Under the pieces are notes generated by a model that worked only from the letters and a program-made list of their open reading frames with translations, did no database searches and had not been told where the DNA came from. Position numbers and translations under genes: made by a program. From the NCBI GenBank assembly GCA_027459645.1, contig DAIDHQ010000039.1:1-64000 (forward strand): 64,000 bases of DNA. The letters are read 5' to 3'. Positions 44,418 through 61,908 of this stretch are shown one piece after another. Origin of the DNA: Vulcanimicrobiota bacterium (GTDB taxonomy: Bacteria; Vulcanimicrobiota; Vulcanimicrobiia; Vulcanimicrobiales; Vulcanimicrobiaceae). Position 1 is the first letter of the stretch; each line of letters opens with the position of its first letter.

Positions 44418-44436
44418 TGGTCATATAGTATGACCA
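44418..44436. promoter_or_regulatory. Palindromic operator over the antitoxin start codon
   Basis: TGGTCATA (44418-44425) and TATGACCA (44429-44436) are perfect 8-bp arms with a 3-nt spacer. The right arm contains the ATG of the antitoxin gene at 44430. This is the expected layout for autoregulation by a Phd-type antitoxin. Confidence 0.65.
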
Positions 44437-44702
44437 GAAAAAAAGCGAAGCCGCCCGTATCTTTTTTGCTTGCGTCCTCGCGTGAAATCGGGGCCGCCGA
44501 ATTCAAGGCACGGTGCCTCGAAATCATGGATGAAGTTGAGCGCCAAGGTATCGAGGTGACCATCACCAAGCATCGCCGGCCGGTCGCACGGCTCGTTCCC
44601 GCTCGCGCTCCGGGCGTGTTCTGCGGGTCGATGAAAGATTCGATCCTTTGGGAGGGCGATCTGATCAGTCCGATCGACGTCGAGTGGGAAGCGGGGCAAT
44701 GA
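44430..44702 (+). CDS. Phd/YefM-type antitoxin
   Basis: 90 residues. IGAAEFKARCLEIMDEVERQ followed by EVTITKHRRPVARLVPA is the classic DNA-binding N-terminal domain of Phd/YefM antitoxins; the C-terminal portion (about 65-90) would bind and inhibit the toxin. It overlaps the toxin gene by 4 nt and has a palindrome over its start codon, consistent with self-repression. Confidence 0.92.
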   Translation: MTRKKAKPPVSFLLASSREIGAAEFKARCLEIMDEVERQGIEVTITKHRRPVARLVPARAPGVFCGSMKDSILWEGDLISPIDVEWEAGQ

Positions 44703-45097
44703 TCCTTCTCGATACCCATGCCGCGCTGTGGGCGATCGAATCGCGGTTACCGAGCAAGGTGGCAAAAACGATCGATGCTGCCTCTGGTAGGTCGGAGCTC
44801 TTGCTTTCACCTATTAGCGCGTGGGAAATCGGGATGCTCGTGAGCAAGGGGCGATTGAGACTTCAGGAGCCCGCGGACGCTTTTGTTGCGCGGTTGTTTT
44901 CGCAACCGGGCGTCGTGATTGCAAACCTTACGCCGCTCGCAGCGATGCAGTCGGCGATGGTGGAGATGCACGCCGATCCCGCGGACCGCATGCTCGTTGC
45001 GACCGCAATTGCCTACGGTGCGGATTTCGTGACGCGTGACGCGCGCATCATCTCCTGGGCGAAGTCGACGCGCGCGCTGCGATGCGTGGCCTGTTAA
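44699..45097 (+). CDS. PIN-domain ribonuclease toxin (VapC-like)
   Basis: 132 residues. The acidic metal-binding residues of a PIN nuclease are visible: Asp5 (MILLDTHAALW), Glu43 (SAWEIGML), Asp96 (DPADRMLVATA) and Asp114 (VTRDARI). VapC enzymes cut tRNA or rRNA when free of antitoxin. The ATG at 44699 overlaps the antitoxin stop; its own stop overlaps the stop of the convergent peptidase gene. Confidence 0.92.
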   Translation: MILLDTHAALWAIESRLPSKVAKTIDAASGRSELLLSPISAWEIGMLVSKGRLRLQEPADAFVARLFSQPGVVIANLTPLAAMQSAMVEMHADPADRMLVATAIAYGADFVTRDARIISWAKSTRALRCVAC

Positions 45098-47185: not shown

Positions 47186-48130
47186 GTGCAGAAACCGTCG
47201 CGGCGCCACCATTACGTTCCTCAGTTCTACCTCAATGGGTTTGCGGGCGATCACGAGAGACCGCGCCTGTTTACAGTGGATCTGATGGGGCGCAAGAATT
47301 TCTACGCTAATCCTCTCAATATTGCTCTGAAGGGTGATTTTCACACGGTGGAGGTTGACGGCCATCCGCCCGATCTTATCGAGACTGCGCTTTCGGATTT
47401 TGAGGGCGCGGTCGCCCCGGCGCTGGCTCGAACCGTCGCGACGGCAACGTTCGCCAGCAGCGAGGATAAGAGCTACCTGCTGACCTTTGCGACGTTGCTT
47501 CTTGTCAAGCATCCGCGAATGCGTGCCGTGATGGATAATGTGGTGAACGCGGTGGTGCATGGAGCGAGCAGAAGTGAGGCCTCGGACGCTGAGGCATGGG
47601 AAATAAAATTACGCGGAATGATTGACGCGGGTGAGATGCCACCTAATACTGACATCGAGGCGCTCCGACATTCGATCCTCAGCGGAGATCACACGATCAA
47701 GCTCTCAACAGGCGCCCACCTTGAAATGGAGTTTGAGGTTGCCGAGGAGTTATTTCCCCTGGTCGCGCAGCGCAAGTGGAACATATACCGCGCGGTCGAG
47801 GGCGAGTTTGTTACATGCGATCGTCCTGTTGCACTGAGCTGGGCGGATCCCACGAAAAATAGTCCAATCGGGCTTGGACTCAAAAACACACGGCTGTTAT
47901 TCCCGCTATCGCCGACCGTTGCAATCAGTGGAGGCTTTGAGCTACGGGATGCCACGGTCGATCTCGGCGCTGAGGATGTCGCAAAGATCAACGGCCGAAT
48001 TATCCTACATGCAGGACGCCAAGTCTATGCGCGGGACGAGCAGTTTCAGTACTCGATCCATGGCAATACAGGCCCGAAGCACGGATACGCACTGCAAGAT
48101 GATGCCATCATCGCTCGAAAGATGAGATAA
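47186..48130 (+). CDS. DUF4238 domain protein
   Basis: 314 residues from a GTG start. The N-terminal RRHHYVPQFYLNGFAGD is the hallmark of DUF4238, and further conserved blocks are VTCDRPVALSWADP and FPLSPTVAIS. The biochemical function is unknown. The gene ends 20 nt before the left att site, so it lies outside the current element. Before integration it would have been the first gene downstream of tRNA-Leu, a place where earlier mobile elements often leave cargo. Codon usage looks less GC-rich than the housekeeping genes. Confidence 0.82.
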   Translation: MQKPSRRHHYVPQFYLNGFAGDHERPRLFTVDLMGRKNFYANPLNIALKGDFHTVEVDGHPPDLIETALSDFEGAVAPALARTVATATFASSEDKSYLLTFATLLLVKHPRMRAVMDNVVNAVVHGASRSEASDAEAWEIKLRGMIDAGEMPPNTDIEALRHSILSGDHTIKLSTGAHLEMEFEVAEELFPLVAQRKWNIYRAVEGEFVTCDRPVALSWADPTKNSPIGLGLKNTRLLFPLSPTVAISGGFELRDATVDLGAEDVAKINGRIILHAGRQVYARDEQFQYSIHGNTGPKHGYALQDDAIIARKMR

Positions 48131-48149: not shown

Positions 48150-48184
48150 GCACGAAAATTGGTGGGGAAGGTGGGATTTGAACC
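48150..48184. repeat. Left attachment site (attL), 35-bp direct repeat
   Basis: These 35 bases are identical to 61815-61849. They contain the last 25 bases of tRNA-Leu (CCA end, acceptor strand, part of the T arm) plus 10 flanking bases. Identity stops at 48185, so this is an orphan tRNA 3' fragment, the expected product of site-specific integration. Confidence 0.92.
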
Positions 48185-49117: not shown

Positions 49118-49159
49118 AAAAAAGATACACCCCGAAAACTCCGGGGTGTATCTTTTTTT
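49118..49159. terminator. Bidirectional terminator near the element left end
   Basis: AAAAAAGATACACCCC (49118-49133) pairs perfectly with GGGGTGTATCTTTTTT (49143-49158), giving a 16-17-bp stem with a short loop, with A runs on one side and T runs on the other. It can stop transcription from both directions. Confidence 0.92.
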
Positions 49160-49235: not shown

Positions 49236-49439
49236 GTGAAGAGCATCTTAAGCTTAGCCGTGCTAACCAGTTACGGAACGATGAACAGAGGAGCCGCGAT
49301 CCTCGGTTTGGGGACGAGCACCCTTCAGCGAGCGTGCAGCGGGTGTAACGTGTCCGAATCTACGCGCGAAAAGTTAGAGAGCGCCTTCGGGCAACCACTC
49401 GAGTTTTTACAACAGACGATTGCGGAGGTGTCGCGATGA
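49236..49439 (+). CDS. Small helix-turn-helix-like protein
   Basis: 67 residues from a GTG that has GGAG at 49224-49227. The sequence RGAAILGLGTSTLQRACSG and STREKLESAFGQPLEFLQQ reads as four to five short helices with a Cro/XRE-like turn, so a DNA-binding regulator is likely but not certain. It overlaps the following excisionase-like gene by 4 nt (ATGA). Confidence 0.55.
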   Translation: MKSILSLAVLTSYGTMNRGAAILGLGTSTLQRACSGCNVSESTREKLESAFGQPLEFLQQTIAEVSR

Positions 49440-49621
49440 GTACAACGTGGCTGAACCCCACGCAGGTTGCGCGCATCCTAGGCTGTACGCGGAAACACGC
49501 CTACTGGCTTCTGGATCACGGCGGCATCCCGTGCGTCGACCTTCCGACGCCTGGACGCCGAAAGATGCGCCGCGTCTCCGCTGCCGCACTTGAAGTGTGG
49601 ATGAAGGAGCATACACGATGA
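49436..49621 (+). CDS. Excisionase-like MerR/HTH_17 DNA-binding protein
   Basis: 61 residues. WLNPTQVARILGCTRKHAYW followed by a DLPTPGRRKMRRVSAAALE wing is the winged-HTH of excisionase-family proteins. It could promote excision with the integrase at 60559 or regulate the element. It overlaps both neighbours by 4 nt and leads straight into the tape-measure gene, an unusual arrangement. Confidence 0.78.
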   Translation: MSTTWLNPTQVARILGCTRKHAYWLLDHGGIPCVDLPTPGRRKMRRVSAAALEVWMKEHTR

Positions 49622-52600
49622 GCGCAGACCAAGGTTTGAGCTTTGCAATCACCGCCGATGGGTCGAGCGCGTCTGCGGAGATTCAAAACCTCGAAGCCCG
49701 CTTGACGCAACTCGAAGCGGCGTTCAAGGCATCGGGTGAAGGCGCGAGCGTTGCGTCGTCGGGGATCGAAAAGGTCGGCGTCGTATCGAAAGACGCAAGC
49801 AGTGGGCTTGAGGCAATGGCTGCGCACGCGGGCACGGTCGGTCGCGCGCTCTCCGCTCTCGGTTTCGATGCCGAGGCCGCTGGCGCTCGCGTCGAGGGCA
49901 TGCTCGGCGTAATGAAAGAGCTTTCGTCGGCAGTGCCCGAGTTGCTTGCGATCGGCGCGGCGTTTGTAGCCATCTCATCGGCTGCGTCCTTTATGAAGGA
50001 CAGCATTAGTTTAGCGGCTGAGTGGGACCAGCGCCTTCAGATCCTCGGGCAAACCATTCGCAACCAGGGCGGCGATTGGGACGCTATGCGCGAGAAAGTC
50101 ATCGCGTGGGCTGACGTCCAAGAAAAAACCACGCAATTTTCACGCGATGAGGCCGTTCAAGCCCTCACGCAGTTGACCGCTACGGGAATGAGCGCGTCTG
50201 ACGCCATGAAGGTCATCGGCGTTGCCGAAGACGCTGCAGCGGCTACCGGGCTATCGCTTACGGCGGTCGAGCATGGCCTCATGGAAGCGATGCACGGTCG
50301 CGCTCAGGCATTAACGCAGCTTGGCATTGGAACGAAGCAGTCCATTCACGATGGCATGAAGTTCCAGGACGTCCTCAACGCCATCGAGCAGCACATGGGC
50401 GGTGCCGCCACGGCTGCAGCCGACACCTATGCCGGCAAGCTCAAGGAAATGCAGCACGCGGTGGAGTCGCTGCAAGAAGACCTTGGGAACCTGCTGCTTC
50501 CCGCACTAACCAACGTCGTCGATCACATTAAGTCATTCGTCGACGAAGTCGACCGCGATCTTCCGCAGATCAAGCAGCAATTCGGTTCGGTCCTTACGGC
50601 AGTATCGGACGTCATAAACTTCCTGGTCGATCATAAGGACCAGGTCGAGTTCTTTTTCGACGTTTTGATCGCGCAGCGTGCGGTATTGGCGCTTACGGCA
50701 CTTCGGACTGGATTCATTACGGCGATGGCCGCCGGCGGTGCGTTTACAACCGTCGTGGAAACGATGGAGTCCGTCTTTACCGTTGGGCTCATTCCGACAA
50801 TGGACGCCGTCGTGGCAAGCCTTGGCGCTATTGTCACGGAGGAAACGGCGGCAACCTTTGGTCTGAATCTCCTCATCGCTGGCAGTATCGCCGGGGCGAT
50901 CTACGCATTTCAGCATTGGCAGGAAGTTCTTCAGGTTACGCAGTTTTCCATCGGGCAACTCGAAAACGCAATCGGGTCGCTTGTTGACGATCTGCTCGGC
51001 TGGATTCCCGGAGTACACGCCTTCGCGCAGTCGCTCGAAGACATGGGGATGAAGGCGCAGATCGCAGCAGCGCAGATTCGCGACCTTCATGCGGCCCAGA
51101 ATGGTGATAAGGGCAAAGCCGACATGGGCGCTGCGTCAAGCGGTGCATGGGGTGCGCCTACCGTAAGCGATGCGCTTGGGTCAACGATGGTTGGCGGCAA
51201 GCTTGGTGGAGCAAAACACGGCTCCGCTGGCGCTGCTGGTTATAACGCGCAGGCTATTCAGGCCGCAACGATCGACGAAACCGCGCTTGCCAACGCCCAC
51301 AAAGCCCTCGGTGCGGCGGCGGATGATGCCTCAGCAGCGCAAGCCGCTCTTGCCGCAAAGATCATCGAAACGATGGACTCGCAACAGCAGCAGTCTATTG
51401 CCATGAAGAAGCTGCAAGAATCCTATGACGCTGCTCGCGCGTCGATTCCTCGTCTGATTGACGAGATCAAAAGCGAGAAGGACGCCGAACACGGCGCGCA
51501 GTCGGCTGTTCAGGCAACGCACGAAGCCTACACCAAGGCGGTCGCGGCGCTCAATGCCTACGAGAAGTCGCTCGAAGGTAAAACGAAGCTCACCGCAGCG
51601 GAGAAGAATGAGCTCAACGCGCTCAAAGACGCGGTTAAGGCGTCTGACACGGAATACAAGAGCGCGGATAAGACGCTCAAAGACATTACGAAAACACTCG
51701 ACGAGCATAATAAGATGCTCGCTACGGCCACGAAACAGGTCAACGCGTTCGCACTTGAGCAGCAGAAGCTTGTCGTGGCGCTGAACGACGCGAAGGAGAA
51801 AGAGCAACAGAAGGTTGCCGATGAAAAGGCGATCTACGGCATGTCGCTCGACCAGCTCGCGAAGTATTACGCCGAGCGGTATGCGATGGCGGTGAAAGCC
51901 GATCAGGACTACTACGACGAGCACCACACGCACCTCAAATCTATGCTTGACGATGAGGCGAAATATTATGTGAAGTCGATCGACGCGAACTTCAATGCGT
52001 GGAAGAAGCGTCAAGATGACACTGCGAAGGCGGAACAGCAGGAAGAAACGTCGATCTCGAACTTCCTCGACGACATCATCGTTAAGCACAAGACGTTTAA
52101 GGACGAGTTCAAGTCGATTTGGAACGAAATCGAAACCATTTTCATTGACGACATTGCGAAGATGATCGCAGAGTCGAGCGCCTTCAATACGATTCTGAAG
52201 AACCTTCTCGGGAGCAATGCTGGTGGTGGTCTCGCCGGCATCATCGGATCGTTATTCGGCGGCCAGCATAACCCGGGTGGCGGAATTATCAATGGCCCGG
52301 TTGGGGCCGGCGCCGATTTGAGCAGTCTGCTGATTGCGCCCGGTTCGTCATCGTCTTCGGCGCTTGCGGTTACGCTTACCGGCGCGTCATCCGGTTCCGG
52401 GCTCGATAAGCTCTTTGGTGGCGGCTCAGGAGGCGGCTTGGGTGCGCTTGCAATGGGCGCTGGCATCGGTGGCCTCGTTGGTGGCTTCGAGGGTGCTGGT
52501 TCCGGCGCTAAGGATCAGCACGCGACTTGGGGCGCCGTCGGCGGCCTGCTCGGCGTTGGCGCGCTTGGACTCGCTGCTGGCTGGGGCAGCGGCATGGGCG

Positions 52601-53373
52601 CGGGTCTTGCGGCATTGCTGGGTGCTGGCCCTGCTGGATGGGCGCTCTTGCTCGGCGCAGGGCTACTCGGCGGCGCTGCCGGCGGCCTGTTCGGCCCGAA
52701 TTGGGGGCCACCGTCGAATTATCCCGACCGTTCGGATACGCAGAACTACGGGCAGTTCGTTGCCGATTGGACTGGAGCGCCGGGTTCCTTTAACGGGCAG
52801 ACGATCGCGCCGTTGCAACAGTACAATGGCAAGTCGAACGATGAAGCCGCGCAGATGCTCGCGTGGGCGCAAGCGAATCCGAACGATCCGCTCTCGAAGC
52901 AACTGCTCGCGTTAGGCTCGACGCAGCAGCAGCTCGATATTACGAACGAGCACAACGGCGTCTTCACGCTCGGCGACGGTAAGCAAATCAGCGTCACCGA
53001 TCTCGAGAACCTCGTCAATCAGTGGCAGCAGCAGACTGGCGGAACGACCACGGTTCCGACGTTCACCCTTACGCATAGCTTCCCTGATTGGCAAAATCCG
53101 CAACTCGCGTTGGGCGGTAATTTCAACGGCCCTCCGGGATCGGTTCAGTCACCGGGCGGCCCGATAGGAAGCCATCCTGGCGCACCTGGCGCGCCAGGAG
53201 GCCCAGGCGGTGGCAATACGCATCCTCAGCCGCCAACGATCCATGTGCGCGTCGACCTTACAACCGGCGCGCTTGTCGGCGTTACGAAAGACTCACTTGT
53301 CAAAGCGGTGTCTGAATCGGTTGCCGACGAGGTTCGGCGCATCCCGCTCACGCGTTTCCAAACGACCTTCTAA
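49618..53373 (+). CDS. Phage tail tape-measure protein
   Basis: 1251 residues from the ATG at 49618, which overlaps the excisionase-like stop. Residues about 120-330 are a conserved tape-measure region (LAAEWDQRLQILGQTI, AATGLSLTAVEHGLMEAM, TYAGKLKEMQHAVESLQEDL, LGNLLLPALTNVVDHI). Hydrophobic helices lie near 350-440, long coiled coils at about 570-820, and a Gly/Ala-rich hydrophobic region at about 880-1020 (LGALAMGAGIGGLVGGFEG). Tape measures set tail length and line the tube; at roughly 1.5 angstrom per residue this one would suit a tail near 190 nm. No other tail gene is present, so it may act on a helper's tail. Confidence 0.88.
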   Translation: MSADQGLSFAITADGSSASAEIQNLEARLTQLEAAFKASGEGASVASSGIEKVGVVSKDASSGLEAMAAHAGTVGRALSALGFDAEAAGARVEGMLGVMKELSSAVPELLAIGAAFVAISSAASFMKDSISLAAEWDQRLQILGQTIRNQGGDWDAMREKVIAWADVQEKTTQFSRDEAVQALTQLTATGMSASDAMKVIGVAEDAAAATGLSLTAVEHGLMEAMHGRAQALTQLGIGTKQSIHDGMKFQDVLNAIEQHMGGAATAAADTYAGKLKEMQHAVESLQEDLGNLLLPALTNVVDHIKSFVDEVDRDLPQIKQQFGSVLTAVSDVINFLVDHKDQVEFFFDVLIAQRAVLALTALRTGFITAMAAGGAFTTVVETMESVFTVGLIPTMDAVVASLGAIVTEETAATFGLNLLIAGSIAGAIYAFQHWQEVLQVTQFSIGQLENAIGSLVDDLLGWIPGVHAFAQSLEDMGMKAQIAAAQIRDLHAAQNGDKGKADMGAASSGAWGAPTVSDALGSTMVGGKLGGAKHGSAGAAGYNAQAIQAATIDETALANAHKALGAAADDASAAQAALAAKIIETMDSQQQQSIAMKKLQESYDAARASIPRLIDEIKSEKDAEHGAQSAVQATHEAYTKAVAALNAYEKSLEGKTKLTAAEKNELNALKDAVKASDTEYKSADKTLKDITKTLDEHNKMLATATKQVNAFALEQQKLVVALNDAKEKEQQKVADEKAIYGMSLDQLAKYYAERYAMAVKADQDYYDEHHTHLKSMLDDEAKYYVKSIDANFNAWKKRQDDTAKAEQQEETSISNFLDDIIVKHKTFKDEFKSIWNEIETIFIDDIAKMIAESSAFNTILKNLLGSNAGGGLAGIIGSLFGGQHNPGGGIINGPVGAGADLSSLLIAPGSSSSSALAVTLTGASSGSGLDKLFGGGSGGGLGALAMGAGIGGLVGGFEGAGSGAKDQHATWGAVGGLLGVGALGLAAGWGSGMGAGLAALLGAGPAGWALLLGAGLLGGAAGGLFGPNWGPPSNYPDRSDTQNYGQFVADWTGAPGSFNGQTIAPLQQYNGKSNDEAAQMLAWAQANPNDPLSKQLLALGSTQQQLDITNEHNGVFTLGDGKQISVTDLENLVNQWQQQTGGTTTVPTFTLTHSFPDWQNPQLALGGNFNGPPGSVQSPGGPIGSHPGAPGAPGGPGGGNTHPQPPTIHVRVDLTTGALVGVTKDSLVKAVSESVADEVRRIPLTRFQTTF

Positions 53374-53391: not shown

Positions 53392-53428
53392 AAATAGCGT
53401 GGCTTCCTGAGCCGCGCTATTTTGTTTT
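53392..53428 (+). terminator. Terminator after the tape-measure gene
   Basis: A 13-bp stem (53392-53404 with 53410-53422, one G-U pair) with a 5-nt loop, followed by TTTGTTTT. Confidence 0.82.
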
Positions 53429-53446: not shown

Positions 53447-53911
53447 ATGACTCGACACGAACAAATAGCCGATGCGGAGCGTGCGCTTACGTTTGCTCGC
53501 TCGCGATCGGATGAACTAAAGACGCGACTCGGCCAGCAGATCGCATCCGGCAACGGCATCGACGAAAAGACCGCGCGAAAGCAGCTTGCCGAAGAAAGTT
53601 CCGCTGTGGACTTTGCCGAGGTCCGCTTGAGCGGCCTTCGCTTGGCCGCCGAACGCGAGCTTCAGCGCATTCCAGAAATCAAGAAATCGTTGCCGGCCGC
53701 CGACAAGGCCGAGAAATCCGCAGGAGAGCGCAAGCAATCGGCACTCGAGACGCTCAAGCGCCTAACGCGCGAGATTGAAGATGCGCAGCGCGAACTGATC
53801 GAGTCGGAGCGAGCGCACGACGTCGCGTTCTTTGCGTACTCGAAGCTCGTACGCGAGGCGGCTGAACTGCGCGAACTTCACCCGGACGCTTTCCCGGAGG
53901 TGCAGCGATGA
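53447..53911 (+). CDS. Coiled-coil protein of unknown function
   Basis: 154 residues from the ATG at 53447, chosen because GGAG at 53437-53440 is 6 nt upstream; an ATG at 53435 lacks such a site. Nearly the whole chain is charged heptad-like helix (IADAERALTFARSRSDELKT, LKRLTREIEDAQRELIESER). It could be a scaffold or structural protein, but nothing identifies it. It overlaps the next gene by 4 nt. Confidence 0.65.
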   Translation: MTRHEQIADAERALTFARSRSDELKTRLGQQIASGNGIDEKTARKQLAEESSAVDFAEVRLSGLRLAAERELQRIPEIKKSLPAADKAEKSAGERKQSALETLKRLTREIEDAQRELIESERAHDVAFFAYSKLVREAAELRELHPDAFPEVQR

Positions 53912-54342
53912 CTGACGGCATTTCATCCTTTCTCGCCAGCATGCAGCGAACGCGCGAGCCGGCGGAGTTTATCGCGAAGGCTGTAGGCTCGAACGAGAGC
54001 ACGCGAACGATCGACGCCGTTCTCGCTCACGGTGACGATACACAAGCCATAAAAACGCTGGGGTACAACTTCTGTGCGAATACCAATGGCGTTATTGAGG
54101 TCGACGGGCGCGTGATTAAGGGGCGAATCGTTGCGTCACTCGTTGGGCAACCGATTCTCAAGAGCGGTCGCCTCTTGGAGCCCGGTGAGCAATTTCCAGG
54201 CGACGACCCACTGATCGGCGTGGGCTTCTCGCGCGGCAAAGAATCGTGCTGGCTCGTGCGGATTCAAACTTCCGATTCCGAGCTTATTTCCGCCGCGAAG
54301 GCCGGCGAACTTTCCGCAATCCTATCGGAGACCGAATCGTGA
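53908..54342 (+). CDS. Unknown element protein
   Basis: 144 residues. The middle reads as beta strands (TNGVIEVDGRVIKGRIVASL, CWLVRIQTSDSELIS). No family is recognised. The ATG and stop both overlap neighbours (ATGA and GTGA), placing it firmly in the operon. Confidence 0.6.
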   Translation: MTDGISSFLASMQRTREPAEFIAKAVGSNESTRTIDAVLAHGDDTQAIKTLGYNFCANTNGVIEVDGRVIKGRIVASLVGQPILKSGRLLEPGEQFPGDDPLIGVGFSRGKESCWLVRIQTSDSELISAAKAGELSAILSETES

Positions 54343-54659
54343 AAAAACCACCGTTAAAGCTTAAAACAAAGCCTGCCACCGGGCAAAAAGTCGTTGCGGT
54401 GAACAAAGGCGCCGTTACGCGCGAAGTCGTCGCGGCGATGATCGCGCAGGCATTTGCCAAAGCGACCGTATCGACTCCGGCACCGCAGGAGACCCATGTT
54501 TCGGACGGCCGCGAAGCCGTGCAGATCGCCGCACAAAACGTTCTGCAACCGATGCCGGCTAGGCCCGTTCCCACGGCGGAGCAGATCCAAAAATGTGGCG
54601 GCGGAATTGGCGGTTTCCTGCGAGCAACACGCGCGCTCGAGCGCGGTGAGACGATCTAA
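54339..54659 (+). CDS. Unknown basic element protein
   Basis: 106 residues from a GTG with GGAG at 54327-54330. The N-terminus is lysine-rich (VKKPPLKLKTKPATGQK), followed by an Ala-rich helix (VTREVVAAMIAQAFAKA) and a Pro-rich tail. Possibly nucleic-acid binding; not identified. Confidence 0.55.
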   Translation: MKKPPLKLKTKPATGQKVVAVNKGAVTREVVAAMIAQAFAKATVSTPAPQETHVSDGREAVQIAAQNVLQPMPARPVPTAEQIQKCGGGIGGFLRATRALERGETI

Positions 54660-54771: not shown

Positions 54772-54801
54772 GCCCTTTAATTGAGTGAACGGCAAAAAAC
54801 A

Positions 54802-55668
54802 ATGAACGCAAAAAAAGAACCCGGCGGGGTAACGCCGGGCACAAAAAAGTCCAAGAACTCTTCGGAAAGCATATCACGGCATCGGAGAACGACACAAGGC
54901 CCGCTCTTTAGTCGCCCCCATCTTCGCGGTCATGAGTTATACGTGATTGCCCCGCAAAACGTGCTGCGAGCCGACTTATCACCGCGCGAATTGAAGGTAT
55001 ATCTCGCACTCGCGAGCCACGCAAACGAAGACGGCGAAGCGTGGCCTTCGCTTGGGACGATCGCCAAAGAGACTGGACTTAACGACGTCCGAGCCGTGCG
55101 TCGAGCACTCCGAGATTTAGAGCTCGTCGGAATGATCTCGTCTTTTCGGCGCTTCCGTGGCGGAAATGTCGCGGCGCTCGCGCTCTCAAGCGTCTATCGC
55201 CTCGAACCGGATCCGAACGTGTGGGTTCTGGAGCGACAAACCGATGATGATGGCCCCGGAGGCTTTGTCGCGAGGGTCGCGTGGAGCGAACTTGCCGCGC
55301 TACGTCAAGAGTTTCCCTGCGCACAGATTCGCCTCCGCACCCGCGCCGACCGCGAGCGATTCCATGCGCTCGACCGCTTTTCGCAAGTAACGTCGGAGCT
55401 CTCTGACACCACCGCGCCAGCAGATACGCCAGGCGTTGCCGTGGAGATCATCGGGATTCCTGAGCCACAGCGACAAGAGGCACAAAGCGCGCTCGACGCA
55501 CTCGCGCTATGGTGCGCCCGCGGAAGCCGGCTTTTACCGTGGTCGGTGCTCGTGGCCCTTATTGAAAAAATGAACACGGAAGACCCGTCGTCATGGCTTG
55601 GTGCACGGGAGCAACGCAACGCAATCCAAGCGCGCTTAGACCACTTGAACGGAGAAAAATCGGCATGA
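54802..55668 (+). CDS. Winged-helix replication initiator (HTH_36-like)
   Basis: 288 residues. After a basic, probably flexible N-terminus, residues about 45-125 form a winged helix (LSPRELKVYLALASHANEDG, WPSLGTIAKETGLNDVRAVR, LRDLELVGMISSF). This is the fold of phage and plasmid replication initiators with an HTH_36 domain. The C-terminal half is helical. The start is placed at ATG 54802; TTG 54781 is possible. Four iteron-like repeats follow directly downstream, supporting a replication role. Confidence 0.78.
   Translation: MNAKKEPGGVTPGTKKSKNSSESISRHRRTTQGPLFSRPHLRGHELYVIAPQNVLRADLSPRELKVYLALASHANEDGEAWPSLGTIAKETGLNDVRAVRRALRDLELVGMISSFRRFRGGNVAALALSSVYRLEPDPNVWVLERQTDDDGPGGFVARVAWSELAALRQEFPCAQIRLRTRADRERFHALDRFSQVTSELSDTTAPADTPGVAVEIIGIPEPQRQEAQSALDALALWCARGSRLLPWSVLVALIEKMNTEDPSSWLGAREQRNAIQARLDHLNGEKSA
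54820..54839 (-). terminator. Minus-strand terminator-like hairpin inside the initiator gene
   Basis: CCCGGCG (54820-54826) pairs with CGCCGGG (54833-54839). On the minus strand the stem is followed by TTCTTTTTTT. No minus-strand gene is seen downstream, so it may stop antisense transcripts or affect initiator translation. Confidence 0.4.
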
Positions 55669-55895: not shown

Positions 55896-56397
55896 CATTT
55901 GCACTCATCCGCAGGGCATGGACATTACGAAAGCGATCTGCCGCGGCGGTTCAAAGCGGACGATTGCGGCTCGTTTCGCGGTCGACGATTCAGCAGTCCA
56001 TCGACACAAAGTGAACTGCCTCCGCATCGTCGGCCCGAAGAAAGCGACAGACGAGAAACATTGGGAAAACGCGACTTTTGCGCCGGAGCGGTTCGATTCT
56101 AGTGCAGATCCACGCGCAATAATTGCACGCGCTGATTCATTGCTAACGCGCGCTGAACGTGTAATGCACGAAGCGGATAAAGACGGCGACAATTTACTTG
56201 TGTTGAAGGCAGTGCGCGAAGCGAAAGGCGTCGTTGAAATGCTCGCGCGCATTCACGGTTTGCTACAAAGCGACGGCGCCGTGGTCGTCGATCAACGCAG
56301 CGTAACTGTCAACGCGCCGGAACTTCCCGAGGAAGATATGCGCGCGATCATAGCAATGGCGCGAGGCTTGCCGGCGAGCGAAAAGGGCTGCGTTTAG
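55879..56397 (+). CDS. Terminase small subunit-like DNA-binding protein
   Basis: 172 residues from the ATG at 55879. The N-terminus has a CSICTHPQG knuckle followed by a helix-turn-helix (RTIAARFAVDDSAVHRHKVN), a layout common in phage proteins encoded just upstream of TerL. A helical middle (LLTRAERVMHEADKDGD) could oligomerise. Assignment as TerS rests on this layout and position; a regulator is the alternative. Confidence 0.6.
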   Translation: MPRSCSICTHPQGMDITKAICRGGSKRTIAARFAVDDSAVHRHKVNCLRIVGPKKATDEKHWENATFAPERFDSSADPRAIIARADSLLTRAERVMHEADKDGDNLLVLKAVREAKGVVEMLARIHGLLQSDGAVVVDQRSVTVNAPELPEEDMRAIIAMARGLPASEKGCV

Positions 56398-56491: not shown

Positions 56492-56662
56492 ATGAAGGTC
56501 GAAGTGGTCCCGGGCGAGCCGTTAGAGCTTGCCCTAAAACGCTTTACCAAGCGCGTTTCGCGCGATGGCATACTGTTGACGTTCTGCCGTCGAGCGCGCT
56601 TTGTCGCGAAGGGTGAACGGCTACGCAATAAGAGCCGTGCTGCAAGAAAGCGCATGCAATGA
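56492..56662 (+). CDS. rpsU-like: Element-encoded ribosomal protein bS21
   Basis: 56 residues (MKVEVVPGEPLELALKRF..., ending SRAARKRMQ) with GAAGGGA upstream of the ATG. It has the same length as the host bS21 at 20331 and is identical at 22 of 56 positions, including the PGE turn, A-L-x-RF helix core, GIL and the KSxAARKR basic tail. The middle helix (FCRRARFVAKGERL) differs strongly. bS21 lies by the anti-Shine-Dalgarno helix, so an element copy could enter ribosomes and bias initiation; phage-borne bS21 is known elsewhere. It overlaps the next ORF by 4 nt and lies two genes before TerL. Confidence 0.9.
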   Translation: MKVEVVPGEPLELALKRFTKRVSRDGILLTFCRRARFVAKGERLRNKSRAARKRMQ

Positions 56663-56949
56663 GCGGCAGCGATACGCTAACGTTGATTGCGCGCGTCGAC
56701 CAGCTTGAGGCGCACGTTAAAGAGCAGCGCGGCCAGATCGCCAAATTGGGCGCGGCGCTGATGCGATTAACGCAAACGTCCGAAGACAACTTCTTGGCAT
56801 TCGGCAAGGCGCTAGCATCGAAGACTATTGCGGATGGCAAGCGCGAAAAGCTCATAGAGATGCTTAAAGCGACACTCGAACGGCATGAGAGCGAAATTCG
56901 CAAGCTGCGGGTTTCGAGCAAGTGTGACATCGACGGGTGCGAGCGATGA
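56659..56949 (+). CDS. Short coiled-coil protein
   Basis: 96 residues, mostly heptad helix (LTLIARVDQLEAHVKEQRGQ, LIEMLKATLERHESEIRKLR), ending in a CDIDGCER knuckle. It overlaps bS21 and TerL by 4 nt on either side. It might be a TerL partner; unknown. Confidence 0.65.
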   Translation: MSGSDTLTLIARVDQLEAHVKEQRGQIAKLGAALMRLTQTSEDNFLAFGKALASKTIADGKREKLIEMLKATLERHESEIRKLRVSSKCDIDGCER

Positions 56950-58451
56950 GCGAGAATTCGGCGAAGATCAAGGCGCTAGCAAGTGTGTACGAACGTCGCC
57001 TTGCCCAATCGCACTTGCTAGACTTTGCTCGGCGCGTAAATCCTTGGTTTGAAGCGCCGGTGCACCTCAAGTACCTTGCCGGCCATCTTGAACGCATCGA
57101 AAGCGGCGCAATCACGCGCCTTGCAATCACCGCGCCGCCCGGTCACGGCAAATCGTCGCTGACGCAGGCGTTCGTTGCGTGGTTCATTGGTCGCGACCCG
57201 AAACGTCGCGTCCTTGCGCTGTCGGGAAATCAGGCGTTGGCGCGCCGCAACAGTCGTGCCGTGCGCGGTATGCTGCAGAATCCGGCGTGGCCGTTCGAGT
57301 GTCGCCTCTCCGGCGAGGCGCTCGAAGAATGGGAAACGTCCGAGGGCGGCGGCGTTCGCGCGATCGGTCGCGATGGGCAACTCACGGGCTTCCGCGCTGA
57401 AGCGATTTTGTTCGATGACGTCCAGCCGGATGCTGGCACGCTGACGTCGCGGCAAGATGACGAGGCGTGGTACCGCGAGATATCGTCGACGCGTCTGGAG
57501 CCCAACGGCGTGCAGGTGTTGATCGCAACACGATGGGCGGAGGATGACCTTATCGGTCGTCTGCGTGAAGGCGCAAGCGCGATGGAGTGGACATTCGTCG
57601 ACTTGCCGGCGCTGGCGCGCGAAAATGACCCGCTAGGGCGCGCGGAGGGCGACGCCCTATGGCCAGAGCGTTGGCCCGTTGACGTTCTGCGCAAGCGCAA
57701 GTCGGAGGTTGGCAGTCTCGCCTTCGCGTGCCAATACCAGGGCGCGCCGGTGCCTCCCGAGGGGCGCTTCGTTCAGCGCGCGTGGTTTCCGCGCTATACG
57801 CCCGGTTCGTTGCCGGCATTTAAGAAAATTGTGCTCGGCGTCGACTGCGCAGCAAAAGCCGAGAAGCGAAACGACAATAGCGCGATCGCCGCAGTGGGCG
57901 TTCCGGCGTCTTCTGTCGAGTCGTATCTCCTGGACGTCTGGGCGAAGCGGATTGAATTCCCGGATCTCGTTCGGGCGCTTAAGGAGCACTACGCCCGCTG
58001 GAAAGACTTAAGCGTTCCGGTCTTCGTGTACGTCGAGGACGCGAGCGCCGGCACGCAGCTCGTGCAGTCGCTAAAGCGGGAGTCCGGCATTCCTGTAATC
58101 CTCGTAAAGACGGGCGGGAAGTCGAAGATCGAGCGCATGGAATCGTTGACCCCTCACTTCGAGGCGGGGCGGGTGTTGCTTCCGGCGCACGCGTCGTGGC
58201 TTGGCGCCTTCGAGGAGGAGCTATACGCGTTCCCTGCGGCGCGCCATGACGATCGGGTCGACGCGTTCGCTATTGCGATTGCTCAGGTGGCGCAGAAGGC
58301 GTTTGCATACGCTGGAGCATTTTCGTCTGGCGCTTCGGTAGTCGCAGATGGCACCGGAACCGTTCGAACCGTACTCTCGCCGGTGAGTGACGGCGTTCCC
58401 CTGGGAAGCGGAGCCGCGATCAGCCACGCACTGCGCGCGGGGATGTTCTAA
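56946..58451 (+). CDS. Terminase large subunit (TerL)
   Basis: 501 residues. ATPase domain: Walker A ITAPPGHGKSSLT (61-73), Walker B AILFDDVQ (153-160), coupling motif VLIATRWAEDDLIGRL (191-206). RNase H-like nuclease: VLGVDCAAKAEKRNDNSAIA with the first metal Asp, and HDDRVDAFAIAIAQ with the last. All catalytic residues are present, so it should package DNA into a procapsid supplied from elsewhere. The ATG at 56946 overlaps the preceding stop. Confidence 0.94.
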   Translation: MSENSAKIKALASVYERRLAQSHLLDFARRVNPWFEAPVHLKYLAGHLERIESGAITRLAITAPPGHGKSSLTQAFVAWFIGRDPKRRVLALSGNQALARRNSRAVRGMLQNPAWPFECRLSGEALEEWETSEGGGVRAIGRDGQLTGFRAEAILFDDVQPDAGTLTSRQDDEAWYREISSTRLEPNGVQVLIATRWAEDDLIGRLREGASAMEWTFVDLPALARENDPLGRAEGDALWPERWPVDVLRKRKSEVGSLAFACQYQGAPVPPEGRFVQRAWFPRYTPGSLPAFKKIVLGVDCAAKAEKRNDNSAIAAVGVPASSVESYLLDVWAKRIEFPDLVRALKEHYARWKDLSVPVFVYVEDASAGTQLVQSLKRESGIPVILVKTGGKSKIERMESLTPHFEAGRVLLPAHASWLGAFEEELYAFPAARHDDRVDAFAIAIAQVAQKAFAYAGAFSSGASVVADGTGTVRTVLSPVSDGVPLGSGAAISHALRAGMF

Positions 58452-58777: not shown

Positions 58778-59161
58778 ATGGCAAGAGTTACAGTACCACA
58801 TTCCGGGTCGAGTGAGACATCGAACCTCGTCCGGTTTCCCGACGTCGCGGAGAGAATGGAGCGGCGGATGCGCGCTCCCGAAGTTCTCGATTTTGTTGGC
58901 ACGACGGGGGCCGATGAGAAGGTCGCGCAATTCCCCGACGCGATCGGACGGTGTGAGCGACGGCTCGAGCGTTTAGCCAACGCGATTTTGGAATTACAGG
59001 AGCGACTGGAGCGGCGTGCGCGGCGGCTCGGCGTTACGCTTCCCGCGCCTCCGCTTGGTGAAAAGCTCCCGACTGTCCGTCAAATTGCTGACGATGTAAC
59101 GAAACAGGTCATGGATGCGCTCGCGCAGGGCGCGGAAGGGCAATATGCAGACCAGCCGTAA
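58778..59161 (+). CDS. Unknown helical element protein
   Basis: 127 residues from the ATG at 58778. There is an N-terminal low-complexity stretch, then a charged helix (CERRLERLANAILELQERLE) and a conserved-looking C-terminus (TVRQIADDVTKQVMDALAQ). Its last 17 nt overlap the next gene. Confidence 0.55.
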   Translation: MARVTVPHSGSSETSNLVRFPDVAERMERRMRAPEVLDFVGTTGADEKVAQFPDAIGRCERRLERLANAILELQERLERRARRLGVTLPAPPLGEKLPTVRQIADDVTKQVMDALAQGAEGQYADQP

Positions 59162-60068
59162 CGCGCCGTGTCCGTGTGGAAGCGGACGCAAATACAAAGT
59201 CTGCTGCCTCGCAAAAGACGAGGCGCAACACAAGCCGCGTATCGACAAAGACGCGCTGATCGTCTGCATGCCGACCCGCGGGCAGATCACCTACGAAACG
59301 GAGCTTGCCCTTCGTGAGACGCTGCGTGGCTTCGATGCGCTCTTTTGCACGATCGGGCGCAAGCCCGTGGTCGAGGCGCGAAACTGGCTTGCGCGCAGCG
59401 CGCTGAGCGCGATCGACGCGAATCCACTCGCGTTTACGCCGCGCGAGTGGTTCATCTTGTGGATCGACGACGACGCGTGGTGGCAGCAGGGCACCGTTCA
59501 GATTCTCGTCGACGGGTTACGGAAGGACCGCGCGACAGACGTTGTGTTCGGCCTTTTTGGAAACCGCACGCCGTATGCCGGGCCGGCGGCATTCCGTAAC
59601 GCGAATGACCTGCAAAGCTTTCCGAAGATGGGCGTCGATTGTCGGCAGGGCGACCTCATACCAATCGAACGCGCAGGCTTTCACTTCGTACTCATGCGAG
59701 AGAGCGCGCTTCGTCGCGTTGGACCTGATCCGTTTACGCCGCGCCGTGCCCACGGCGAGGATTTTGAATTCTGCGAACGGGCGGTCGAAGCGGGCCTCAG
59801 TCTGAAAGTCGCGACCGGCGTGCCGATAGCGCACCTGGACCCGCGCGATGGCACGGCGTACTTCGTCGGCATGGCGCCGATGATGATGGACGGGAACGTC
59901 GTGCGCGCCATGAGCCTCACGCATGCCACTCCGCAAGGTGTTAAAGAGGCCGAGCTTCGCGAATATGGCGAGCAGATTGGCGATGCAGCCGCGCGTGAGC
60001 GTGAGGCGCTGAGCGAAATTGAATCAGAAATGCAACAGCGGCGCAAGGTCGCAGAGGGAGCGGTATGA
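59145..60068 (+). CDS. SEC-C zinc motif fused to GT-A glycosyltransferase-like domain
   Basis: 307 residues from the ATG at 59145. Residues 6-21 (NAPCPCGSGRKYKVCC) are a SEC-C zinc motif. The rest looks like a GT-A glycosyltransferase: LIVCMPTRGQITYETELALR first strand, metal-binding WIDDDAWW (107-113), acceptor-side GEDFEFCERAVEAGLSL (204-220) and a metal-ligand His in VPIAHLD. It could glycosylate DNA, a virion protein or a host surface target; which is unknown. SEC-C motifs usually bind zinc and mediate protein or RNA contacts. Confidence 0.78.
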   Translation: MQTSRNAPCPCGSGRKYKVCCLAKDEAQHKPRIDKDALIVCMPTRGQITYETELALRETLRGFDALFCTIGRKPVVEARNWLARSALSAIDANPLAFTPREWFILWIDDDAWWQQGTVQILVDGLRKDRATDVVFGLFGNRTPYAGPAAFRNANDLQSFPKMGVDCRQGDLIPIERAGFHFVLMRESALRRVGPDPFTPRRAHGEDFEFCERAVEAGLSLKVATGVPIAHLDPRDGTAYFVGMAPMMMDGNVVRAMSLTHATPQGVKEAELREYGEQIGDAAAREREALSEIESEMQQRRKVAEGAV

Positions 60069-60556
60069 TTCCGACCACAGATGGTTCCAAGGCCAAGGCG
60101 TTTCTCGCGTCGCTTAAGCCCGAAGATGCAAACATGCTGCGCGCGGCGATCGTCGCGGCAATTGCGAAGACGTCGGAACTAACCGTCGAGGTCGCCGTCG
60201 TATCGCATGCGCGCAACCTGGACGTTATTCGTGAAACGCAGATAAACGTCGCGGTCATCGAGAATACGGCGCTCGACTGCGCCGCCGACGTTCTTGCAGC
60301 GTCCTGGCCCAAGCGGACCGACGGCGCGCCCGTTACAGATCTGAGCGCGCTCGCTGCCGGCGCCGCGGTCGCGAGCGGAATGAGTCTCGGCAAGGCGCGC
60401 GGCGCCATGTATCGCGCGGGGAGCGCCCTTGGCGATGTCGAGGCGATTGCTTCGGGCAATCCCGAGAAAATTGTTCGGCGTGGGGCGCAGCACGTTTTCT
60501 GGCGCGCGTTCGGCAAGCTTGGTCGTGGTATTTTCCGCTCGTTCGGAGGTAAGTAG
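60065..60556 (+). CDS. Unknown element protein with C-terminal helical/Gly-rich region
   Basis: 163 residues; the ATG overlaps the preceding stop. The N-terminal half is helical and charged (FLASLKPEDANMLRAAIVAA); the second half has Ala/Gly-rich helices (LSALAAGAAVASGMSLGKAR) and a basic end (FWRAFGKLGRGIFRSFGGK). It lies just before the integrase gene. Unknown. Confidence 0.55.
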   Translation: MIPTTDGSKAKAFLASLKPEDANMLRAAIVAAIAKTSELTVEVAVVSHARNLDVIRETQINVAVIENTALDCAADVLAASWPKRTDGAPVTDLSALAAGAAVASGMSLGKARGAMYRAGSALGDVEAIASGNPEKIVRRGAQHVFWRAFGKLGRGIFRSFGGK

Positions 60557-60558
60557 CG

Positions 60559-61752
60559 ATGCGAGGGCATTTCAAACGGCGCACATACCGGGATAAGAAG
60601 ACCGGCGCGATTCGCACGGCCACCACATGGTCGGTGCTTTACGATCTTCCGACTGCTCCGGGCGAAAAGCGCAAGCAGAAGATCAAGTCTGGATTCGCAA
60701 CGAAGCGGGACGCGGTTGCGTGGTTCACGCGTAAGGCGGAGGAATTACGTCAAGGCATTGCGCCGGCGGATGACCGTATTACGGTTGAGCAGTACCTAAC
60801 GAATTGGCTGACGACTGCGGAGGGGACCGTTTCGGCGCTCGCACTCCACGCGTACAAGAACCACGTCGAGCAGCATATCATCCCCGCGCTTGGTGCAATC
60901 CGACTAGTGGATTTGCGCGCGACGCACGTTGAAACCGCCAAGGCTCGTTGGTCGACGAGCGCCCCGAAGGGACGAAAGACGGGGCGCCTGAGCGATCGCA
61001 CGGTGCGGCATATCTATTCCACGCTGAACACGGCGCTTAACCGCGCTGTTCGTCACCGAATGATCCCCGTTAATCCGTGCGAGTTTGTCGACGCTCCTCG
61101 CGTAGAGAGGCGCGAAATGCAGGCGCTCGACGCGGCGGCTGGCGCGCGGATGATCGAATTACTTGAAGGCTCGCACATTGGAGCCGCGATCGTGACGGCA
61201 TTGGGCACGGGGCTCCGGCGGGGCGAACTGCTCGCGCTAAAATGGTCCGACGTCGACCTCGATGCGGGGCTCCTCACCGTTCAGCGTTCGCTCGAGCGCG
61301 CAACGAAGGCAACGCGTTTCAAAGATCCAAAGACGAAACGCTCGCGAAGGACTGTTAGCATCCCGCGTTTCGTGGTCGACCGCCTGCGGCGCCATCGTAT
61401 GGAGCAGGCTGAGCGTTTCTTGTCCCTGGGTCTCGGTCGCCCGACGGCAGACGCGCTCGTATTCGAGCGGTTAGGCGAACCGTGGGTCCCTAATACGTTT
61501 GGAACGGCGTTTCGACGCGAACTAAAGCGGTTGGAATTGCCGGCAATTCGTCTGCATGACCTCCGCCATTCATTCGCGTCGATGGCGCTCGCTGCCGGCG
61601 TTGATCTGAAGACGGTTTCGAGCGCACTCGGGCACTCGACGATCTCAACGACGGCGGATGTTTACGCGCACGTTACGGCGGCCATGAAAAAGGACGCCGC
61701 CGCTCGCCTCGATGCCGCCCTCGCCGGGGCCGCAAAACGTGCAAGTGGATAG
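60559..61752 (+). CDS. int: Tyrosine-family site-specific integrase
   Basis: 397 residues. An arm-binding region (1-70) and a SAM-like core-binding domain (75-170) precede the catalytic domain. The catalytic residues are visible as Arg220 (GTGLRRGELLALKW), His333 and Arg336 (LHDLRHSFASMA), His359 (ALGHSTIS) and the nucleophile Tyr369 (DVYAHV). It ends 63 nt before attR, as usual for tRNA-integrating elements. Confidence 0.96.
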   Translation: MRGHFKRRTYRDKKTGAIRTATTWSVLYDLPTAPGEKRKQKIKSGFATKRDAVAWFTRKAEELRQGIAPADDRITVEQYLTNWLTTAEGTVSALALHAYKNHVEQHIIPALGAIRLVDLRATHVETAKARWSTSAPKGRKTGRLSDRTVRHIYSTLNTALNRAVRHRMIPVNPCEFVDAPRVERREMQALDAAAGARMIELLEGSHIGAAIVTALGTGLRRGELLALKWSDVDLDAGLLTVQRSLERATKATRFKDPKTKRSRRTVSIPRFVVDRLRRHRMEQAERFLSLGLGRPTADALVFERLGEPWVPNTFGTAFRRELKRLELPAIRLHDLRHSFASMALAAGVDLKTVSSALGHSTISTTADVYAHVTAAMKKDAAARLDAALAGAAKRASG

Positions 61753-61814: not shown

Positions 61815-61849
61815 GCACGAAAATTGGTGGGGAAGGTGGGATTTGAACC
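61815..61849. repeat. Right attachment site (attR), 35-bp direct repeat
   Basis: Identical to 48150-48184. It lies across the 3' end of tRNA-Leu, whose gene is complete here, so the element brought in a replacement 3' end and left the tRNA functional. Confidence 0.92.
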
Positions 61850-61908
61850 CACACGAGTTGCCCCGGCCGCTTTTGAGGCGGCTGCGTCTGCCGTTCCGCC
61901 ACTTCCCC
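61825..61908 (-). tRNA. tRNA-Leu (CAA)
   Basis: 84 nt with encoded CCA. Acceptor GGGGAAG/CTTCCCC, anticodon loop CTCAAAA (CAA) on GCCGC/GCGGC, a class II variable arm and T arm GTGGGTTCAAATCCCAC. The 3' 25 bases are within attR. Confidence 0.95.

Follow-up and report, generated by a model that had tools for sequence, protein, structure and literature searches.

The window analysed here, a 64,000-nucleotide stretch of a Vulcanimicrobiota bacterium genome (contig DAIDHQ010000039.1, assembly GCA_027459645.1), contains a 13.7-kb integrated element whose identification as a phage satellite is well supported and which encodes, apart from any tail operon, a full-length tape-measure protein (TMP). 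The element is delimited by 35-bp direct repeats, its target is tRNA-Leu(CAA), and its integrase gene adjoins the tRNA gene. Since it has its own terminase but no identified capsid gene and no identified tail gene besides that of the TMP, a helper phage would be needed. The explanation we favour, and to which we give about an even chance, is that this terminase-bearing satellite furnishes its own TMP to the tails of a helper siphophage, so that chimeric tails would result; we infer the dependence on a helper, the expression of the TMP, its incorporation into virions and its benefit to the satellite.

To assess the gene content, the element was compared in six frames with a set of 283 proteins encoded by 13 phage loci; this set included tail-tube, chaperone-position, capsid and portal proteins. 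The matches in the element were to the TMP, a protease-like protein, the terminase large subunit (TerL), a SEC-C protein and the integrase only, and neither these phage proteins nor the library families gave a portal, capsid, tail-tube or tail-chaperone match. On this basis the small element, which has an integrase and attachment (att) sites, is without a capsid and tail gene set of its own and without the portal, capsid and tail operon of a complete prophage. It also belongs to a lineage of similar elements and does not look like a one-off deletion. The window's own genome (G000) carries a second element, G000:C4, of 12.4 kb at a tRNA-Pro with att repeats of 46 bp, encoding an integrase, a 163-residue protein (62% identical), a SEC-C protein (62%), bS21, a TerS-like protein and TerL (43%). 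A genome of another genus, G038, carries an 11.3-kb element at the same tRNA-Leu with att repeats of 26 bp, encoding an integrase (63% in the called part), SEC-C, bS21, TerS-like and TerL proteins. The likeness is partial for three more att-bounded TerL elements, those of G040 (8.9 kb), G054 (7.7 kb) and G071 (16.8 kb). Six-frame comparison gave no TMP match in the elements of G000:C4, G038, G040 and G054 (0 of 4), and the G071 element has a TMP of another family. In G060, which is of the same genus as the window, the matching neighbourhood and tRNA-Leu are present and tblastn of the called window-element proteins returned zero matches.

The TMP gene is an open frame of 1251 codons that occupies 27% of the element, AGGAG precedes its start codon, and its product aligns with phage TMPs from the first methionine to near the C-terminus, with both ends conserved. 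TMP matches at E <= 0.001 were found in 13 of 103 genomes of the order, the window's own included; four of these matches, in G080, G068, G092 and G040, were left uncounted as being C-terminal, weak or fragmentary. Tail-tube genes were found in seven of the 103 genomes (one of them weak) and a matching capsid protein in three. In G083, G002, G030, G096 and G024, and in the virus contig L117, a tail-tube gene lies upstream and is followed by further small genes until the TMP gene; the genes of G083, G002 and G096 that we call chaperones by position, not by library match, form one profile family. The TMP locus of G066 is truncated by the contig start, and upstream of the TMP genes of L118 and G055 stand other small genes not identified as tube. 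Only in the window and in G065, whose contig ends early, was a whole TMP gene seen without any of these genes upstream. A tree of 13 TMPs, built on 249 columns of an N-terminal region, does not fix the placement of the window protein, to which the G002 sequence is the nearest. Single-protein TMP scans of virus contigs, genome contigs and a phage collection gave no relative, as did a TerL scan of virus contigs. The initial annotation had suggested that this TMP is a stand-alone effector, giving the remodelling of a helper's tail as an example. A remodelling of tail length, such as a shortening, is unsupported, as 1251 residues fall within the range of six phage TMPs, that is, 1188 (G104), 1190 (L118), 1257 (G103), 1348, 1352 and 1473 residues, where the values for G103 and G104 are those of the open frame. 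Replacement of the helper TMP by that of the satellite is plausible by analogy with the PLE satellites discussed below.

A close examination of the window sequence confirmed that the TMP gene ends a chain, described earlier as regulator genes running directly into it: a helix-turn-helix (HTH)-like open reading frame (ORF), an HTH_17 gene and the TMP gene are joined by two ATGA overlaps (49436-49439 and 49618-49621). The chain is enclosed by two strong hairpins, each of which was matched in stability on the plus strand by none of 200 shuffles (z-scores in Table 1). Four-nucleotide gene overlaps are commonplace in bacteria and unremarkable by themselves, and the oddity of the block is a TMP gene without a neighbouring tube or chaperone gene. 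Such genes between the regulator and the TMP were looked for in relatives and found in none; tube and chaperone genes stand directly upstream of TMP relatives in ordinary phages only. The idea that the coupling of regulator and TMP is a designed unit is weakened by the sister elements. In G038 the HTH, HTH_17, coiled-coil and next genes are chained via 4-nt overlaps, as are the HTH, coiled-coil and next genes in G000:C4 (where an HTH_17 gene was recognised by eye), and neither chain contains a TMP gene. The window TMP gene is located between the HTH_17 and coiled-coil genes. Because the TMP-less sisters join the regulator directly to the coiled-coil gene, the coupling looks like an insertion, and the simplest history, judged from gene order, would be that the TMP gene was inserted at this junction; the coupling need not be functional. 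The coiled-coil genes of the three elements correspond in position, with no significant sequence similarity. The HTH label of the first ORF is tentative and is based on where the ORF lies and on its weak alignment with a gene of G038 that belongs to HTH_3 (E 4.1e-7); the ORF gave no Pfam or PHROG match and was not called by a simple gene finder. The HTH_17 gene scored 23.4 against the TIGR01764 'excise' model, below the cut-off of 28.8.

Two other genes of the element are shared with phages. All four phage relatives of the protease-like protein match PF14550 (XkdF-type protease), and the window protein is below the threshold of this model. Near the C-terminus the four phage proteases have KANH and a GxSxG-like motif, which we take to hold the catalytic His and Ser of S78 proteases, and both motifs are missing from the window protein. 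The gene keeps an open frame and is chained through 4-nt overlaps; a predicted structure of its product reached a pLDDT of 40 and was not used. The SEC-C plus glycosyltransferase-like protein is common to satellites and siphophages, being found near TerL in virus contig L115 (9998-10837) and also on L116, and both contigs carry protease and TMP relatives as well.

Known systems offer several points of comparison. Capsid-forming phage-inducible chromosomal islands (cf-PICIs) encode capsid genes, and the window element, in which no capsid genes were found, differs from them in this respect. It shares a putative TMP with them, since putative tmp genes of cf-PICIs are given in the legend of Extended Data Fig. 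10 of PMC12987554, the part of the paper on which this likeness rests. The closest precedent is that of the phage-inducible chromosomal island-like elements (PLEs) of Vibrio cholerae: in the excerpts consulted of a 2026 Nature paper (PMC12987554), the satellites' own TMP is present in virions and required for transduction, which its deletion lowers by 96-99.9%. Both are small integrated satellites that encode a TMP, the other tail parts being supplied by a helper in the PLE case (PMC12987554, same excerpts). As those excerpts have it, the PLE helper ICP1 is contractile and the PLE and helper TMPs differ by 95 residues, with 10-nm shorter tails, whereas the window TMP is siphophage-type and lies within the phage length range. 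The window element further stands apart from PLEs by its own TerL and its protease-like gene. It has a TMP gene without tube and sheath genes, as a PLE-type element would, and no adjacent chaperone gene was found, though a diverged one could escape. The Pseudomonas element AH14b is also alike in the portion of its description consulted (PMC4936722), having about 17 kb, an integrase, an AlpA-like regulator, a primase and one helper-like tail-assembly gene; there the lone tail gene is TAPI, and here it is the TMP gene. Among the siphophages of Eremiobacterota and soil viromes (L020, L023, L115-L118), one or more encode a homologue of the TMP, of the XkdF-type protease or of the SEC-C protein. 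They differ from the window element by encoding a capsid and a tail, and where seen, their tube and chaperone genes adjoin the TMP gene. Among the papers listed by literature searches on satellite tape measures and on Eremiobacterota prophages, none described such an element for this phylum.

If the satellite does furnish its TMP to helper tails, it would integrate at tRNA-Leu, excise, and replicate via its own initiator, and its TerL/TerS-like pair would package its DNA into the heads and tails of a helper siphophage. A complete helper-type TMP gene would have been acquired just behind the satellite regulator gene. On helper infection the satellite TMP would be made and would nucleate tube polymerisation together with the chaperone, tube and tip proteins of the helper, the outcome being chimeric tails. 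The benefit might be particles with the satellite's own ruler and injection protein, evasion of tail-targeted defences, or competition with helper tails.

Several observations weigh against this explanation. With four of the six att-bounded TerL elements lacking a TMP match (the window and G071 elements have one), the TMP is dispensable for the element family. The 283 query proteins represent one broad phage group, so that diverged virion genes or those of a different type could escape. A search of G000 for a helper of the matching type was negative (tail tube, major capsid protein family and PF05065 each gave 0 matches), and there was no close relative with which selection on the TMP could be tested. 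Homologues of the TMP, the protease and the SEC-C protein are found together in the L115 and L116 phages, yet the closest TMP is that of the G002 phage (53% over the 249 columns). Finally, a tail chaperone lies beside the TMP in PLEs, along with a hub in PLE11, according to the excerpts of PMC12987554, and none was recognised in the window by six-frame comparison.

The main rival, which we regard as possible but doubtful, is that a satellite or shrunken prophage recombined with an infecting phage and thereby kept a TMP gene and a piece of a head-protease gene, neither of which has a function now. The loss of the conserved His and Ser from the protease homologue would fit such a relic, as would the fact that satellites of the same family manage without a TMP and that both acquired genes stem from phage structural operons; the TMP frame is nevertheless intact, with an upstream AGGAG and alignment at both ends, and the protease homologue is still an open frame within its overlapping chain. 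The same loss of His and Ser would make the protease homologue a plausible poison of head maturation, and the TMP and dead protease could then be dominant-negative decoys that interfere with helper tail and head assembly outside the satellite virions. Inhibition of tail assembly is already described as a satellite strategy in the part of PMC11364771 consulted, but a decoy needs no full-length TMP with both ends conserved, and a satellite without tail genes depends on helper tails; we regard interference as quite improbable. An unlikely combination is that a satellite family of an uncultured phylum reprogrammes helper virions at two points, in which a full-length TMP of the satellite's own would give chimeric siphophage tails while a catalytically dead copy of the helper's head protease would redirect or block head maturation, with packaging by its own terminase. 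An ordinary prophage stripped of its structural genes by a recent internal deletion or a misassembly is very improbable and largely refuted. Phages also carry TerL, Rep, integrase and TMP genes, and the genome assembly consists of 47 contigs; the sequence is nevertheless continuous from att to att on a single contig, and two att-bounded elements, in this genome and in another genus, have much of the gene set in common and no capsid matches.

Other candidates for satellite TMPs were less clear. The G071 TMP (L119 13478-17084) passes TIGR01760, but could not be accepted as a second clear case, given an undetermined residue and odd sequence in its C-terminal part and an unreliable length of 642 residues; L119 was the one locus inspected individually of 80 TerL loci on genome contigs. 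Judged by eye alone, the 438-residue gene that follows resembles a baseplate hub gene, an arrangement reminiscent of the TMP and hub of PLE11; it gave no family or PDB match except one sub-threshold tail-fibre match. In G065 (L026 11604-18006, L027) we noticed a 1673-residue TMP gene divergent from TerL and a 267-residue gene, part of which matches (38%) a phage gene that has portal and capsid genes on either side; this may be a further satellite, one that acquired both a TMP gene and a head gene, on a contig that stops after TerL. G080 has a TMP-like gene, its match mostly C-terminal, within a 22.6-kb element at tRNA-Ile that gave no TerL match; it was not counted, and an att-bounded element of G027 with SEC-C and no TerL match was kept out of the TerL elements. 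The other integrase matches (L095-L114), many on short contigs, revealed no further element with both TerL and TMP.

The features of the element are collected in Table 1. The TerS-like protein gave no match in the family libraries. A bS21 gene is present in all three closely similar satellites, the other two at L082 4232-4420 and L084 18690-18872 (PF01165). Phages encoding bS21 are already known (listed: PMC9723584, PMC6375957), and a literature search joining bS21, phage and satellite found no paper that brings the three together. Outside the element, a DUF4238 protein (PF14022; also a PHROG family member) is encoded immediately beyond attL at 47186-48130, and a small gene pair at 44430-45097 resembles a Phd-type antitoxin and a PIN-type toxin, judged by eye.

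Table 1. Features of the satellite element and its attachment sites, in window coordinates
Feature	Position	Strand	Evidence or remark
attL, 35-bp direct repeat, tRNA-Leu 3' fragment	48150-48184		identical to 61815-61849
Bidirectional terminator-like hairpin	49118-49158	both	T-runs on either strand; z -7.5 (+), -6.5 (-)
Small HTH-like ORF (tentative)	49236-49439	+	GTG start, GGAG upstream; position as in G038
HTH_17 / excisionase- or AlpA-like gene	49436-49621	+	PF12728 E 3.8e-10, above cut-off
TMP, 1251 aa, ATG start	49618-53373	+	PHROG tape-measure families 3.3e-6 and 6e-6
Intrinsic terminator-like hairpin 3' of TMP gene	53392-53422	+	z -5.8
Predicted coiled-coil protein, 154 aa	53447-53911	+	positional counterparts in G000:C4 and G038 elements
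XkdF-type (S78_2) head-protease homologue	53908-54342	+	relatives in four phage loci
Small protein	54339-54659	+	weak homologue in G000:C4 element, E 4e-4
Replication initiation protein (HTH_36)	54799-55668	+	PF13730 2.1e-14; phrog_270 2.8e-14
TerS-like protein	55918-56397	+	HTH and helical hairpin in predicted structure, pLDDT 60; conserved before TerL
Ribosomal protein bS21 homologue	56492-56662	+	PF01165 2.7e-11; TIGR00030 1.9e-12
TerL	56946-58451	+	phrog_38 7.5e-105; PF17289
SEC-C / glycosyltransferase-like protein	59145-60068	+	near TerL in virus contigs too
Conserved 163-aa protein	60065-60556	+	62% identity to G000:C4 element counterpart
Tyrosine integrase	60559-61752	+	PF00589 4.3e-24
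attR, 35-bp direct repeat in tRNA-Leu 3' end	61815-61849		identical to 48150-48184
tRNA-Leu(CAA), integration target	61825-61908	-	contains attR in its 3' end

As far as the excerpts of PMC12987554 extend, the first report of satellite-encoded TMPs dates from 2026 and concerns PLEs, and PLE-like elements and cf-PICIs supply further, putative examples. If the favoured explanation is true, tail-ruler swapping would recur in an apparently unrelated, terminase-bearing satellite whose TMP-less sisters mark the insertion point, and one could ask what use a TMP is without a chaperone of its own and without a change in length. The host of the window element is a soil bacterium. That this small parasite of phages has a full-size ruler gene, with no other tail or capsid gene identified, suggests that it may equip the tails of the phage that it hijacks with a ruler of its own.

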